Assembly: GCA_011389865.1 (NCBI GenBank)
Contig: JAABTL010000018.1
Span: 1-55,547 of the forward strand
Direction of reading: 5' to 3'
DNA length: 55,547 nucleotides
Source: Trueperaceae bacterium
GTDB lineage: Bacteria > Deinococcota > Deinococci > Deinococcales > Trueperaceae
Both the position numbers and the translations under genes were made by a program. The notes below the pieces were generated by a model that saw nothing but the letters and a program-made list of their open reading frames with translations, was not told the origin of the DNA and searched no databases. Shown in pieces: positions 39,322 through 44,568 of this stretch; within the stretch, counting starts at the first letter, position 1, and the number at the start of each line of letters is the position of its first letter.

Positions 39322-41247
39322 TTGGCCCAAGTCGTCCCCGAAGCCCCGTTCAAGACCGACGACGCGGAGGAGCTGTACGCCGTCTCCTCGTGGGCCAGCG
39401 GCTACTTCGAGGTCGGCAGCGATGGCGACATGCAGGTGCTGCAGCGCGGCGCCGAGGCCTCGAGGGTCTCGTTGCCCGCCGTCGTCGAGGGGCTCAAGGC
39501 CGAGGGGCGCACGCTGCCGGTCATCCTGCGCTTCCCGCAGATCATCGAGGACCGGCTCGACCGGATCAACCATTCCTTCCAGGCCTCGATCCACGAGGCC
39601 GGTTACAAGGCGCGCTACCAGGGCGTCTACCCGATCAAGGTCAACCAGCGGCGCGTGGTCGTCGAGACGATCGCCGAGTACGGCGCCCGCTACGCCACCG
39701 GCCTGGAGGCCGGCAGCAAGGCCGAGTTGGCGCTGATCCTGGTGCAGGACACGCACCCCGACGCGCTGATCTGCTGCAACGGCTTCAAGGACGACGACTT
39801 CATCCGCCTCGCGCTGTGGGGCCGCAAGCTCGGCAAGAACGTCATGATCACGCTCGAGAAGCCGAGCGAGCTCGAGCGCGTGCTGCGGGTCAGCGCCGAG
39901 ATGGGCGTGGAGCCCGCGGTCGGCATCCGCTTCAAGCTGCACGCCAAGGGCGCCGGCGCCTGGGAGGCGTCGGGTGGCGACGAGGCCAAGTTCGGCCTGA
40001 CCGCCACCGAGCTCATCCACGCCGTGGCGCGCTTGGCGTCCCTAGGGAAGCTAGGCGCATTGCAGATGATCCACTGCCACGTCGGCAGCCAGCTCACCGA
40101 CGTGCGCCGGATCAAGGTGGCGGTGCGCGAGGCGGCGCAGGTCTACGTCGACGTCGTCAACATGGGGGCCGACGTCCGCTACCTCAACGTCGGTGGCGGC
40201 CTCGGGGTCGACTACGACGGCTCCAAGACGAACTTCTACGCCAGCGCCAACTACGGCATCAGCGAGTACGCCGACACGGTCGTGTACACGATCAAGGAGA
40301 CCTGCGACGACGGCGAGGCGCCGCACCCGGTCATCGTCACCGAGTCCGGGCGGGCGCTGACGGCGCATCATGCGCTGATCGTGCTGCCCGTGATCGACGC
40401 GATCGGCCCCACCCGCGCGACCTACGAGCTGCCGCCCCTCGAGGGCGAGGTGCACGCGGTGGTGCGCGACATGCAGGAACTCGCGCGCGACATCAACCTG
40501 AAGAACTACCGCGAGGTGTTCAACGAGGCGGTGTCGAACAAGGACACCATGCACAGCCTCTTCGACCTCGGCTACATCACCCTGCTCGAGCGGGCGCACG
40601 TGGAGCAGCTCTACCACCGCACGCTCCTGCGCATCGCCAAGGTCATCGAGCAGCTCGACTACGTGCCCGAGGAGCTCGAGGCGCTGCCCAAGCGGCTCGC
40701 GGACCAGTACGTCGTCAACTTCAGCCTCTTCCAGGGCATGCCCGACCACTGGGCGATCCAGCAGCTCTTCCCGATCGTGCCGCTGCACCGCCTGCAGGAG
40801 GAGCCGAACCGCGAGGCGACGCTCGTCGACATCAGCTGCGACAGCGACGGCAAGATCGCCAAGTTCATCGACCTGCGCGACGTGCGCGCCACGCTCCCGG
40901 TGCACGACCTCGTGCCCGGGCGGCCGTACTACCTCGGCGCCTTCCTCACCGGCGCCTACCAGGACGTGCTGGCCAACAACCACAACCTCTTCGGCCGCAT
41001 GAACGAGGCCCACGTGCGCCTGGACGGCAAGGGCGGCTGGCGGCTGGAGCGCTTCGTCAACGGGCAGAAGGCGCGGCGCGTCATCGAGAACATGGGCTAC
41101 GAGACCGCGGAGCTCCACGGCTGGCTGCAGGACGAGATCCGCGAGGCGGAGCGTTCCGGCGTCAAGCTGTCCGACGAGGCCAAGCGCGAGATGACCGAGC
41201 TCTACGACGCGGAGCTGGTGGGGTACACGTACCTCGAACAGGTCTAG
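39322..41247 (+). CDS. speA: Biosynthetic arginine decarboxylase
   Basis: The 641-aa PLP enzyme converts arginine to agmatine. The start is TTG at 39322 with AGAGGAGG upstream. The alanine-racemase-like barrel comes first, with the PLP Lys in VYPIKVNQRRVV; MIHCHVGSQLTDVRRIK and YLNVGGGLGVDYDG are phosphate and ring contacts; DISCDSDGKIAKF and FLTGAYQDVLANNHNLFGR belong to the C-terminal barrel. Size and motifs match SpeA. Its product is the substrate of AguA (27933). Confidence 0.95.
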   Translation: MAQVVPEAPFKTDDAEELYAVSSWASGYFEVGSDGDMQVLQRGAEASRVSLPAVVEGLKAEGRTLPVILRFPQIIEDRLDRINHSFQASIHEAGYKARYQGVYPIKVNQRRVVVETIAEYGARYATGLEAGSKAELALILVQDTHPDALICCNGFKDDDFIRLALWGRKLGKNVMITLEKPSELERVLRVSAEMGVEPAVGIRFKLHAKGAGAWEASGGDEAKFGLTATELIHAVARLASLGKLGALQMIHCHVGSQLTDVRRIKVAVREAAQVYVDVVNMGADVRYLNVGGGLGVDYDGSKTNFYASANYGISEYADTVVYTIKETCDDGEAPHPVIVTESGRALTAHHALIVLPVIDAIGPTRATYELPPLEGEVHAVVRDMQELARDINLKNYREVFNEAVSNKDTMHSLFDLGYITLLERAHVEQLYHRTLLRIAKVIEQLDYVPEELEALPKRLADQYVVNFSLFQGMPDHWAIQQLFPIVPLHRLQEEPNREATLVDISCDSDGKIAKFIDLRDVRATLPVHDLVPGRPYYLGAFLTGAYQDVLANNHNLFGRMNEAHVRLDGKGGWRLERFVNGQKARRVIENMGYETAELHGWLQDEIREAERSGVKLSDEAKREMTELYDAELVGYTYLEQV

Positions 41248-41257
41248 CCGGGCCGAT

Positions 41258-41282
41258 CGCGCGCGCGCGCCCGCGCGCGCGC
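41258..41282. repeat. Alternating CG tract
   Basis: Two runs of CG dinucleotides (41258-41270 and 41272-41282), separated by one base, lie just after the speA stop. Low complexity with possible Z-DNA tendency; likely no specific function. Confidence 0.6.
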
Positions 41283-41317
41283 CCGCGCCCGGCCGCCGGC
41301 CTCCGCTGCCACATGAA

Positions 41318-41350
41318 CGGCGGCCCCAGGGAAGATCCCCGGGGCCGCCG
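41318..41350. terminator. Bidirectional hairpin between convergent speA and DOMON genes
   Basis: Perfect 10-bp arms CGGCGGCCCC (41318-41327) and GGGGCCGCCG (41341-41350). It can terminate either strand. Confidence 0.6.
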
Positions 41351-41376: not shown

Positions 41377-41943
41377 TCAGAAGACGAAGTCCTCGATGTA
41401 GAACGCGCCGCCGCGGTTGCTGCGCTCGTGCGCGCGCTCGATGTCCATGGTGTTGCCGTGGGCCAGCATGAAGATCATGGGTTCGCCCGGGACGATGTCG
41501 ACGTCGGTCTCCTCGCCGGTGGCCAGGTGACGCGAGAACTCCACCGTCCACACGTCGTCCTCGTGCACGGCGGCGAACGCGCTCAGCGAGTTGCTGCCGC
41601 CCTCGTCCTCGTCGAGTTCTGGCGCGCCGCGCGCACCGGACTGGTAGGCGTCGTAGGCGACGGCCTCACCGTCGACGATGGCGAACATGAGTTCGTCGGC
41701 GCCGGCCTTGCGGTTGGACTGCTCGCTGAGCCAGCCCACGCCGGACCAGCCGCGGGCCTCCATCGTGTAGCCCATGTACAGCGTGTCGCCGTCGATCGTC
41801 CAGTACAGGACGGCGCCGGAGTCGTGCTCGAGGGTGTTGGCGTACTCGCCGTCGGCGATCGCACCGTCGATCGCGGGCTGGGCCAGCGCGACGGTGCCGA
41901 CGAGGGCGAGCGCGAGAGCGGTCACGAGAAGTTTCTTGATCAT
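41377..41943 (-). CDS. Secreted DOMON-like domain protein
   Basis: The 188-aa protein starts at ATG 41943 with AGGAGG upstream and a signal peptide ending near VALAQ. The mature part is a beta-rich domain: IDGAIADGEYANTLEHDSG, VLYWTIDGDTLYMGYTMEARGWSGVG, DELMFAIVDGEAVAYDAYQS, and VWTVEFSRHLATGEETDVDI. This is the pattern of DOMON / cytochrome b561-type heme- or sugar-binding domains. No CxxCH is present, so any heme would be b-type. It is the last gene of an operon with two paralogous membrane proteins; a redox or sensing complex is possible. Confidence 0.75.
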   Translation of the reverse strand: MIKKLLVTALALALVGTVALAQPAIDGAIADGEYANTLEHDSGAVLYWTIDGDTLYMGYTMEARGWSGVGWLSEQSNRKAGADELMFAIVDGEAVAYDAYQSGARGAPELDEDEGGSNSLSAFAAVHEDDVWTVEFSRHLATGEETDVDIVPGEPMIFMLAHGNTMDIERAHERSNRGGAFYIEDFVF

Positions 41944-41970
41944 GGAATGCCTCCTAAGGGGCGGAACGGG

Positions 41971-42426
41971 TCAGTCCTTCACCCAGGCGGTGAGACCGAC
42001 GGCGAGGCCCACCGCGCCCACGTGGGTGTGGGCGAGTCCGGCGAGCACGGGGCGGTAGGGGACCTGCATGGACTCGAGGAACCCGCTGATGCTGAACAGC
42101 GAGACGCCGAGGTCGCTGGCGTTGAAGACGAGGTGCAGCAGGGCGCCGAGGAGCCCGGTGAGGAACGCGACGGCCATGCCGCCGACGAAGGCGTAGGTCA
42201 GCCACTTGCGGGTGGAGAAGAACATGGCGATCGCCAGCGGCGTGCCGATGATGGACACCCAGGCGGGGATCAGCGCCGTCCAGTGCGTCAGGGTCTGATG
42301 ATCGATCACCCAGTGCTCGACCCCGTAGAACACGAGGCCGAAGGCGGCGATCAGCAGGAAGAGGTTCTGCAGGAACGCGAGCGTGCGCTCGTCGTCGGTC
42401 TGGGCGCGCATCAAACGCTGGATCAT
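41971..42426 (-). CDS. Four-helix membrane protein, copy 2
   Basis: The 151-aa integral membrane protein has helices at about residues 17-42, 54-72, 75-102 and 126-149. It is a paralogue of the next gene upstream. Shared features: His after helix 1 (HWVIDH versus VIGHW), His at the end of helix 3 (GALLHLVFN versus GAYYHWLWN), and the helix 4 motif RPVLAGLAHTHVGAVGLA versus RPILAALAYTNMGVTGLA. The paired His in helices could bind heme, but this is inference. AGGTGA-type ribosome site overlaps the upstream stop. Confidence 0.73.
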   Translation of the reverse strand: MIQRLMRAQTDDERTLAFLQNLFLLIAAFGLVFYGVEHWVIDHQTLTHWTALIPAWVSIIGTPLAIAMFFSTRKWLTYAFVGGMAVAFLTGLLGALLHLVFNASDLGVSLFSISGFLESMQVPYRPVLAGLAHTHVGAVGLAVGLTAWVKD

Positions 42427-42435
42427 GTCGTCACC

Positions 42436-42879
42436 TCACCTGGCCCTGTAGATGCAGGCTAGACCGGTCACGCCCATGTTGGTGTAGGCCAACGCGGCGA
42501 GGATGGGGCGGAAGCCGTGGAAGTTCTCCATCGCGGGCGTGAAGTTCCAGTCGATCTCGCCCGCGTCCATCATGTTCCACAGCCAGTGGTAGTAGGCGCC
42601 CAGGATACCGGTGACGATCAAGACCAGCATCGTGACGATGAAGGCGATGCGGACCCAGGGCGTGGTGCGGTCGAAGAAGATCCAGGCGATGAAGACCACG
42701 CCCGGGATGGTCACGTAGAAGGGGATCTGCGACTGGAAGGTGGGCAGCCAGTGGCCGATGACGTACAGCTCGAGCGCGTAGCCCAACATGCCACCGAACA
42801 CGAGGAACATGAGCACCATGCGCACGATCTCGAGCGCGCGGCCCGTGTTCGTGGTGGCGGCGCGGAAGGCGGGGATCAT
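42436..42879 (-). CDS. Four-helix membrane protein, copy 1
   Basis: The 147-aa protein has helices at about 21-44 (VLMFLVFGGMLGYALELYV), 55-70, 74-102 and 124-144. It is homologous to the following gene, as described there, and carries conserved His in VIGHW and YYHWLWN plus an extra aromatic-rich loop DWNFTPAMENFHGFRP. I do not recognise a named family. Its ATG overlaps the stop of a 23-codon upstream frame (ATGA), so translation may be coupled. Confidence 0.73.
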   Translation of the reverse strand: MIPAFRAATTNTGRALEIVRMVLMFLVFGGMLGYALELYVIGHWLPTFQSQIPFYVTIPGVVFIAWIFFDRTTPWVRIAFIVTMLVLIVTGILGAYYHWLWNMMDAGEIDWNFTPAMENFHGFRPILAALAYTNMGVTGLACIYRAR

Positions 42880-42947
42880 GCCGTGCCGCCGTACGGGTGG
42901 CCGCGCTGGTGCGCGCGGGCGTCTTGGCTCGTCTGCAGATCCCTCAC
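42876..42947 (-). CDS. 23-codon upstream reading frame
   Basis: GTG at 42947 has GGGAGG 6 nt upstream, the best ribosome site of this operon. The peptide MRDLQTSQDARAHQRGHPYGGTA is hydrophilic and ends in a stop overlapping the membrane-protein ATG. The downstream ATG lacks its own Shine-Dalgarno, so this frame may serve translational coupling rather than make a functional peptide. Confidence 0.5.
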   Translation of the reverse strand: MRDLQTSQDARAHQRGHPYGGTA

Positions 42948-43024
42948 GGTGGACCTCCCAAGGGAATCGGGCCCCTGCGGGAAGCTCGGCTAGCCCCGCG
43001 CATCGGCCCGTCTCGATGCAAGCG

Positions 43025-43276: not shown

Positions 43277-43482
43277 CGTGTGTTCGGCGCCTTCCGGTTG
43301 GGCCGGCGCTGCGCACGGGTGCCGCGATCCGGTGGGTTCGCGGAGCCAGGTGTTCGCCACCGCGCGAACGCACGTAAGGCTCCGATGACCGACGCCGACC
43401 GCGGACGCGGCGGCCGAGCGGCGCGCGTGGCTCGTGACCCCCACGACCCTGAGCGCGATCGCACCACGTGGAGGGACCGACC

Positions 43483-44568
43483 ATGAGCCACAACACCCCG
43501 AGCAAGCCCGAACTCCTGCAGACCGTCGTGCGCCACCTCGACATCAAGCAGGTCGACGTCACGCCGTTGGTCGACATGATGGGCGAGACCGCCTTCAGTG
43601 CCCGCGACCTGGCGCGCGCCGGCCGCATCCTCGACATGATGGTGCGCGACCCCGAGGCCGGCGTCATCCTGACGCTGGCGGGCTCGATCGTCTCCGCCGG
43701 CCAGAAGCAGGTGATCGTCGACCTGCTGCGCGCCAACATGGTCGACGCCATCGTCTCCACCGGCGCCAACGTCGTCGACCAGGACTTCTTCGAGGCCCTC
43801 GGGTTCCGCCACTACCAGGGCGACAAGTTCGCCAGCGACGCCGTCCTGCGCGAGCTGATGATCGACCGCATCTACGACACCTACATCGACGAGGAGCAGC
43901 TGCGCACCTGCGACGACACCGTGCTCCAGATCGCGGAGACCCTCACGCCGGGGACGTACTCCAGCCGCGAGTTCCTGCGCGAGATGGGTCGCTACCTCGC
44001 GGAGCGCGACCTCGGGGCCGACAGCATCCTGCGGACGGCCTTCGAGCTCGACGTGCCGGTGTTCGTGCCGGCGTTCAGCGACTGCTCCGCCGGCTTCGGC
44101 CTGGTGGCCCACCAGGTCCGCCACCCCGGGGCGCACGTGGCGATCGACAGCGTGAAGGACTTCCGCGAGCTGACGGACATCAAGGTGCACCAGGGCACCA
44201 CCGGCATCTTCATGATCGGCGGCGGCGTGCCCAAGAACTTCGTGCAGGACATCGTCGTCTCCGCCGAGTTCCTCGGCTTCGAGGCCGAGATGCACAAGTA
44301 CGCGGTGCAGCTCACCGTCGCGGACGAGCGCGACGGCGCCCTCTCCGGCTCGACCCTGAAGGAGGCGAGCAGCTGGGGCAAGGTCGACCTGGCCTTCGAG
44401 CAGATGGTGTACGGCGAGGCGACCGTCACGCTGCCGCTGGTCGCCGGCTACGCCTGGCACAAGCGCGGCTGGGAGGGGCGCGCCCCGCGGCGCTACGCGC
44501 GCTTGTGGGACGCCGCGGCGCCGACCGCGCGCCAGCCGACGGCGACGCCAGCGGGCGTCAGCGGGTAG
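43483..44568 (+). CDS. Deoxyhypusine synthase family protein
   Basis: The 361-aa protein starts at ATG 43483, with GGAGGG upstream. NAD- and substrate-site motifs of deoxyhypusine synthase are present: GVILTLAGSIVSAGQKQ, AIVSTGANVVDQDFFEAL, GFGLVAHQ, GIFMIGGGVPKNFVQD, and the catalytic Lys in KEASSWGKVDLA. Bacteria lack eIF5A, and bacterial members often act as homospermidine synthases or on unknown targets. With speA and aguAB in the window a polyamine role is likely. The last 76 bp overlap the convergent MBL gene. Confidence 0.85.
   Translation: MSHNTPSKPELLQTVVRHLDIKQVDVTPLVDMMGETAFSARDLARAGRILDMMVRDPEAGVILTLAGSIVSAGQKQVIVDLLRANMVDAIVSTGANVVDQDFFEALGFRHYQGDKFASDAVLRELMIDRIYDTYIDEEQLRTCDDTVLQIAETLTPGTYSSREFLREMGRYLAERDLGADSILRTAFELDVPVFVPAFSDCSAGFGLVAHQVRHPGAHVAIDSVKDFRELTDIKVHQGTTGIFMIGGGVPKNFVQDIVVSAEFLGFEAEMHKYAVQLTVADERDGALSGSTLKEASSWGKVDLAFEQMVYGEATVTLPLVAGYAWHKRGWEGRAPRRYARLWDAAAPTARQPTATPAGVSG

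Follow-up and report, generated by a model that had tools for sequence, protein, structure and literature searches.

The window, which is the whole 55,547-nucleotide stretch of Trueperaceae bacterium DNA analyzed here (contig JAABTL010000018.1), contains a compact operon of three genes, A, B, and D, whose products probably constitute a membrane-bound electron-transfer module; we put the probability of this reading at roughly 0.6. A and B, two paralogous four-helix membrane proteins, are putative quinone-reactive subunits, and D, an exported protein of the DOMON fold, is a putative periplasmic heme carrier. In the proposed mechanism, A and B, as two copies of one four-helix bundle, would form an eight-helix membrane unit. 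The site comprising Glu37, His43, and His98 at the periplasmic face would react with quinone, or hold a b heme beside a quinone site, and A and B would exchange electrons with menaquinone at the outer face. D, as a DOMON heme b protein, would carry electrons between the A/B site and a redox enzyme in the periplasm. For one lineage of Thermus, this enzyme would be a TtrB-TtrA molybdenum/iron-sulfur pair that has lost its own NrfD-type quinol anchor, TtrC. We infer both the physical complex of the three proteins and the direction of electron transfer.

The features of the locus are summarized in Table 1. The preliminary description had reported four closely packed frames on the minus strand together with several sequence motifs, and their coordinates, spacing, and motifs were as first noted. 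The A-B-D operon stands alone between a divergent gene upstream and a convergent gene downstream of D, the latter lying beyond a strong inverted repeat. Judging from its sequence, this repeat is a probable transcript end after D that would be common to the convergent gene too. A long run of alternating CG lies between D and the convergent gene. A motif search of A, B, and D found no CxxCH in any of the three.

Table 1. Features of the A-B-D locus and its surroundings, in positions of the window.
Feature	Position	Strand	Description
GGGAGG ribosome-binding site of the leader	42954-42959	minus	From sequence
23-codon GTG leader frame	42876-42947	minus	Stop overlaps the A start codon (ATGA)
Gene A	42436-42879	minus	147-aa four-helix membrane protein; start overlapped by leader stop (ATGA)
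Gene B	41971-42426	minus	151-aa paralogue of A; A-B gap 9 nt
Gene D	41377-41943	minus	Exported DOMON-fold protein; B-D gap 27 nt
G+C-rich inverted repeat CGGCGGCCCCGGGG...CCTGGGGCCGCCG	41318-41350	minus	3' of D; read directly from sequence
Alternating CG run	41255-41290		Between D and the convergent gene
Convergent gene	39322-41247		Arginine decarboxylase (reading of translation)
Divergent gene	43468-44568		Deoxyhypusine-synthase-like (reading of translation)

The 23-codon frame had been described as leading the operon. The frame is present and overlaps the start of A, but it is not part of the complex. It is restricted to the genus of the window, where all four trio-carrying genomes possess such a frame (16, 23, 23, and 26 codons) with a GTG start, an upstream GGGAGG, and a stop overlapping the A start. 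The encoded peptides differ among the four genomes except between the two closest relatives, and a peptide function was rejected because the sequence is not conserved beyond the nearest relative. In the window, no GGGAGG-like site occurs within 16 bases upstream of A, and three of the four leader-bearing genomes have no clear ribosome-binding site of A itself; in all the other genera checked, a GGAGG-type site directly precedes A. Its likeliest role is that of a leader for ribosome loading or translational coupling, and not that of a subunit.

A and B share 33% identity (E 5e-16), and the profile-profile probability of 99.9% indicates that they are paralogues. Glu37, His43, Pro53, Gly91, Gly94, His98, Asn102, Arg124, Pro125, Leu127, and Gly136 were invariant over all aligned A and B sequences. 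Moreover, Glu37, His43, Gly94, His98, and Pro125 were unchanged in 20 of 20 sampled superfamily members, distant relatives included (the lowest pairwise identity in the related superfamily alignment, A8, was about 18%). B has Glu37, His43, His98, and Asn102 in common with A, and carries in addition the invariant His38 and His133 and the nearly invariant His135. The AlphaFold2 model of A (pLDDT 92.7) contains helices at residues 11–40, 48–69, 74–105, and 126–143, with His43 predicted to fall in the loop that follows helix 1 and His98 to lie some two turns deep. The positive-inside rule applied to the loop charges predicts that both termini are inside and that Glu37, His43, and His98 are at the outer (periplasmic) face, the predicted side of Asn102 too. 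The Glu/His/His set is also retained in stand-alone relatives that have no DOMON partner. A heme, quinone, or metal site would each fit these residues.

We found no known family for A and B. No member had a credible Pfam match, the NCBIfam matches were at chance level only, no sequence match was obtained in the PDB, and a Foldseek comparison of the A model with solved structures gave nothing significant (best E 0.62).

In regards to D, a signal peptide was recognized by eye, and the sequence matched the DOMON family (PF03351) with an E value of 1.2e-14 and 55.0 bits, above the gathering cut-off of 32.7. The score for EB_dh (PF09459) was 30.1 bits, under the Pfam cut-off of 33.3. The AlphaFold2 model of D (pLDDT 81) has the DOMON/cytochrome beta-sandwich fold, and its Foldseek matches include the DOMON domain of dopamine beta-hydroxylase (4zel, 2e-6), EbdC (2ivf_C, 1e-4), NxrC (2e-3), and the cytochrome domains of pyranose/cellobiose dehydrogenases, as well as 6jt6 (8e-5). 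A profile match to NxrC was also obtained (2.6e-6). His172 is invariant in D, and His40 and Met166 are nearly so. Some DOMON domains bind sugars instead of heme; we consider D a likely, still putative, b-heme carrier. The heme ligands of EbDH are Met/Lys (PMC8840923), and the axial ligands of D, with its His172, probably differ from those of the subfamily II gamma subunits. An equivalence of residues with the heme ligands of cellobiose dehydrogenase was unsupported by hhalign, which aligned 27 columns of D with that cytochrome without significance. By eye, the Met at the Met-ligand position of cellobiose dehydrogenase is not kept in D, and His172 may, by motif inspection, correspond to the His ligand. 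DOMON paralogues of D with no A/B directly beside them were observed at L163:3954-4553, L165:4248-4844, and L166:1184-1789, and from the reading of translations those of L163 and L165 lie near genes of heavy-metal (P-type ATPase or HMA) type.

The A-B pair was found in 31 of 111 Deinococcota genomes, and D follows it in each of the 30 whose contigs extend far enough; the remaining genome (G099) has a contig that stops 47 bases after B. The gaps within the trio were mostly −4 to 30 nt (89–126 nt in three genomes). The carriers recovered by name belong to Trueperaceae, Thermus, and Meiothermus, with a single Armatimonadetes MAG besides, and the order of A and B together with D is kept across them far more than by chance. 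The search beyond Deinococcota was a contig scan with one peptide pattern, by which some relatives may be missed. Among 43 genomes of the phylum to which the Armatimonadetes MAG belongs, A/B occurs in only one, and this copy was therefore probably transferred. The MAG has a TtrA (55% identity), whose contig stops before TtrB/TtrC. Upstream of its trio (L084:4149-6676) come an EB_dh heme-type protein and a hydrophobic, unassigned protein of 170 aa, and farther upstream lie genes for ABC-2 type transporters and for a YtkA-like protein. Plasmid-borne copies of A/B were looked for and none was found. A literature search, with small coverage of subscription journals, found no description of the A-B-D layout.

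The preliminary description had set three checks of its reading: conservation of the histidines in homologues, conservation of the gene order, and absence of a confident match of both membrane proteins to an unrelated known family. All three came out in its favor: His43 and His98 are invariant in every aligned A and B and in distant relatives, the gene order recurs across the genomes above, and the Pfam, NCBIfam, and PDB searches placed A and B in no known family.

The operons of Thermus link the trio to a redox enzyme. Ten Thermus genomes have A-B-D immediately after a Tat-exported TtrB-TtrA pair, resembling tetrathionate reductase, that is not accompanied by the NrfD-type anchor TtrC. Nine of the ten TtrC-less loci examined in detail run into A-B-D on the same strand, with gaps of 73–86 nt where measured, and the adjacency in G072, established by coordinates, brings the adjacent genomes to ten in all. 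In G096, A-B-D is on a contig other than that of the TtrC-less locus, and both parts are kept. Every one of the 12 genomes having the TtrC-less type of TtrA has A-B-D. By comparison, 13 of 13 TtrC-containing operons examined had the order TtrB-TtrC-TtrA, with TtrC of the NrfD type (9–10 helices), and A-B-D was not beside them; G071 and G072 carry both arrangements. In the tree, the TtrC-less TtrA sequences form one clade (support 100/100), and the loss of TtrC and the joining of A-B-D are therefore a single swap event. Because the swap is one evolutionary event, the ten adjacent genomes are not independent, and the Fisher P of 1e-5 should not be interpreted as though each of them counted separately. 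TtrA and TtrB each begin with a twin-arginine motif; together with the export of D and the predicted outer position of the A/B invariants, this would allow all parts to meet at one face of the membrane.

The TtrA-like enzyme has TtrA as its best NCBIfam match (E 4.5e-122), and its partner matches TtrB (7e-53); both scores are far below the equivalog cut-offs, so the substrate is unproven. Furthermore, a TtrA homologue was absent at E 1e-30 from the genome of the window and from most A-B-D genomes outside the TtrC-less lineage, which indicates that Ttr is not the general partner of the trio and that the trio has another partner there. Other molybdopterin enzymes are present in the genome of the window, none of them linked to the trio in this analysis.

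We compared the trio with known systems. NrfD-type anchors are described as a pair of four-helix repeats whose quinol site faces the outside (PMC8076601). Like the NrfD/PsrC/TtrC anchors, A and B together would partner periplasmic TtrB-TtrA and have two four-helix bundles with a conserved polar site on the outer side. They differ in being separate proteins (147 and 151 aa) with an invariant Glu/His/His set that would work with a DOMON protein. Genes A and B take the position of such an anchor, next to a periplasmic FeS/Mo enzyme, in Thermus only, in the one clade. Homology of A/B to NrfD/TtrC was rejected, since hhalign of alignment A4 against the Thermus TtrC alignment gave a probability of 0.1 (E 0.42). 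D resembles EbdC and NxrC, the heme b gamma subunits of subfamily II molybdenum enzymes (PMC8840923), in its DOMON/EB_dh fold, its profile match to NxrC, its export, and its position beside a Mo/FeS enzyme in some Thermus; it differs in its EB_dh score, in the two membrane subunits alongside it, and in an enzyme of the TtrA type and not of subfamily II. With tetrathionate reductase, TtrABC, the loci of the ten Thermus genomes share TtrA/TtrB as putative partner and divergent PhnD-like, histidine kinase (HK), and response regulator (RR) genes, whereas TtrC is missing from them, the scores are below the equivalog cut-offs, and the genome of the window lacks TtrA at the threshold above.

A profile search with A/B detected further four-helix proteins in Deinococcota. 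In four genomes (G045, G047, G078, and G079), an A/B relative directly follows a secreted cytochrome c with five CxxCH motifs, and in G045 and G078 a YceI-domain gene precedes the pentaheme cytochrome c and RR and HK genes adjoin. In G040, a member of another family, two tandem Rieske-domain proteins, at least one of which (the first) has a Tat signal by Pfam, are divergent from an A/B relative (L151:3526-5200). The recurrence of the A/B family beside different periplasmic electron carriers is the behavior expected of a membrane redox partner. The YceI/pentaheme cytochrome c/A-B-relative arrangement was observed in Thermus and related genomes at L154:2833-4581, L156:4669-8317, L155, L153, and L163:7346-9001; in L154 and L156 it has RR and HK genes as neighbors. 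It looks like an uncharacterized electron-transfer or redox-sensing operon. In G021, G005, and G061, a secreted helix-hairpin-helix protein (ComEA/PsbU-like) lies directly upstream of an A/B relative (L054:8655-9780, L149:2598-3551, and L152:5750-6737). We consider it possible, at somewhat less than even odds, that A/B and their distant relatives make up a superfamily, not described before, of four-helix oxidoreductases that act between quinone and periplasmic carriers through a Glu/His/His site and have been plugged into different periplasmic redox chains. These chains would include DOMON heme b, pentaheme cytochrome c, Rieske proteins, and TtrBA without its NrfD anchor.

Other readings of the same data were weighed. 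A and B may themselves be b-type cytochromes, in which His43 and His98 (in B, also His98 and His133) ligate heme b close to the periplasmic face. With a third heme in D, the result would be a wire like that of the eukaryotic cytochrome b561-DOMON proteins (CYBDOM) in a different fold. The two invariant outer-side His of each subunit, the extra invariant helix-4 His of B at a predicted depth similar to that of His98, and the DOMON partner are consistent with such a wire, and CYBDOM likewise pairs a DOMON domain with a small membrane part in which His residues are conserved. The trio is, however, unfused and bacterial, with four helices per subunit and another His pattern; no A/B member matches the Pfam b561 domain, which has four His heme ligands, and A has only two invariant His. 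In A of Trueperaceae, Asn or Tyr stands in place of the helix-4 His, and the predicted mismatch in depth between His43 and His98 would be unusual for a bis-His heme. In stand-alone relatives, Glu37 is conserved no less strictly than the His residues, which a quinone or metal site fits equally well. We regard a b-type cytochrome as unlikely, if a serious candidate. A rather improbable alternative is that TtrBA is a mere hitch-hiker beside A-B-D in Thermus, the trio being functionally unrelated and TtrBA using another NrfD protein. The association arose in one event only, and several Thermus genomes have A-B-D without adjacent TtrBA, but the same strand and short gaps were maintained in ten genomes, G096 kept both parts after their separation, and the trio accompanies the TtrC-less TtrA type in every genome that has it.

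The preliminary description had proposed a membrane-anchored redox or sensing complex in which duplicated subunits supply His ligands, and this is partly supported. The case for the redox complex is now much stronger through the TtrC swap and the cytochrome c and Rieske neighbors of distant homologues, a heme-ligating role of the His residues is one candidate beside a quinone or metal site, and the 23-codon frame drops out of the complex. A sensor that passes a periplasmic redox signal, the quinone state, or a metal signal to two-component systems is quite improbable. OmpR-type RR/HK pairs adjoin many of the distant A/B relatives, and in Trueperaceae g12 (L055:9558-12417) RR, HK, and Fur genes are directly upstream of A-B-D in one order and on the same strand, which suggests metal or redox control of the trio. 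In the window and at most other loci of the trio, however, no kinase is adjacent, and A/B have no cytoplasmic signaling domain. The PhnD/HK/LuxR set beside the Thermus trio also accompanies TtrBCA operons lacking A-B-D, which indicates that these two-component genes belong to Ttr. Least probable among these alternatives, and very unlikely, is a non-redox role of A/B as a metal or thiosulfate/sulfite-linked transporter or as an assembly factor for a sulfur locus. In most Thermus loci the gene that follows D directly encodes a YeeE-type sulfur transporter (Sulf_transp), a metal ion could be bound by Glu/His/His, and one A/B relative is near copper-type genes. Against this, YeeE was not seen beside D in the Trueperaceae, Meiothermus, and G096 loci, four helices are few for a transporter, and redox neighbors recur in unrelated contexts. 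Counting against the electron-transfer module, in turn, are the restricted partnership with Ttr, the occurrence of one swap only, the lack of a solved structure like A, and the frequent two-component and Fur neighbors, which would suit a sensor too.

To our knowledge, few types of membrane protein connect periplasmic enzymes with the quinone pool by electron transfer, namely NrfD, NapC/NapH, b-type cytochromes, and cytochrome bc. Thermus are hot-spring bacteria with culturable species, some of which are genetically tractable. If the electron-transfer module is correct, it would assign a role to a membrane family of Thermus and its relatives that lacks annotation, and would provide the poorly understood bacterial DOMON proteins with a further partner. 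A further, unrelated membrane type would then be able to replace NrfD under a molybdoenzyme, and these enzymes would be more modular than assumed.
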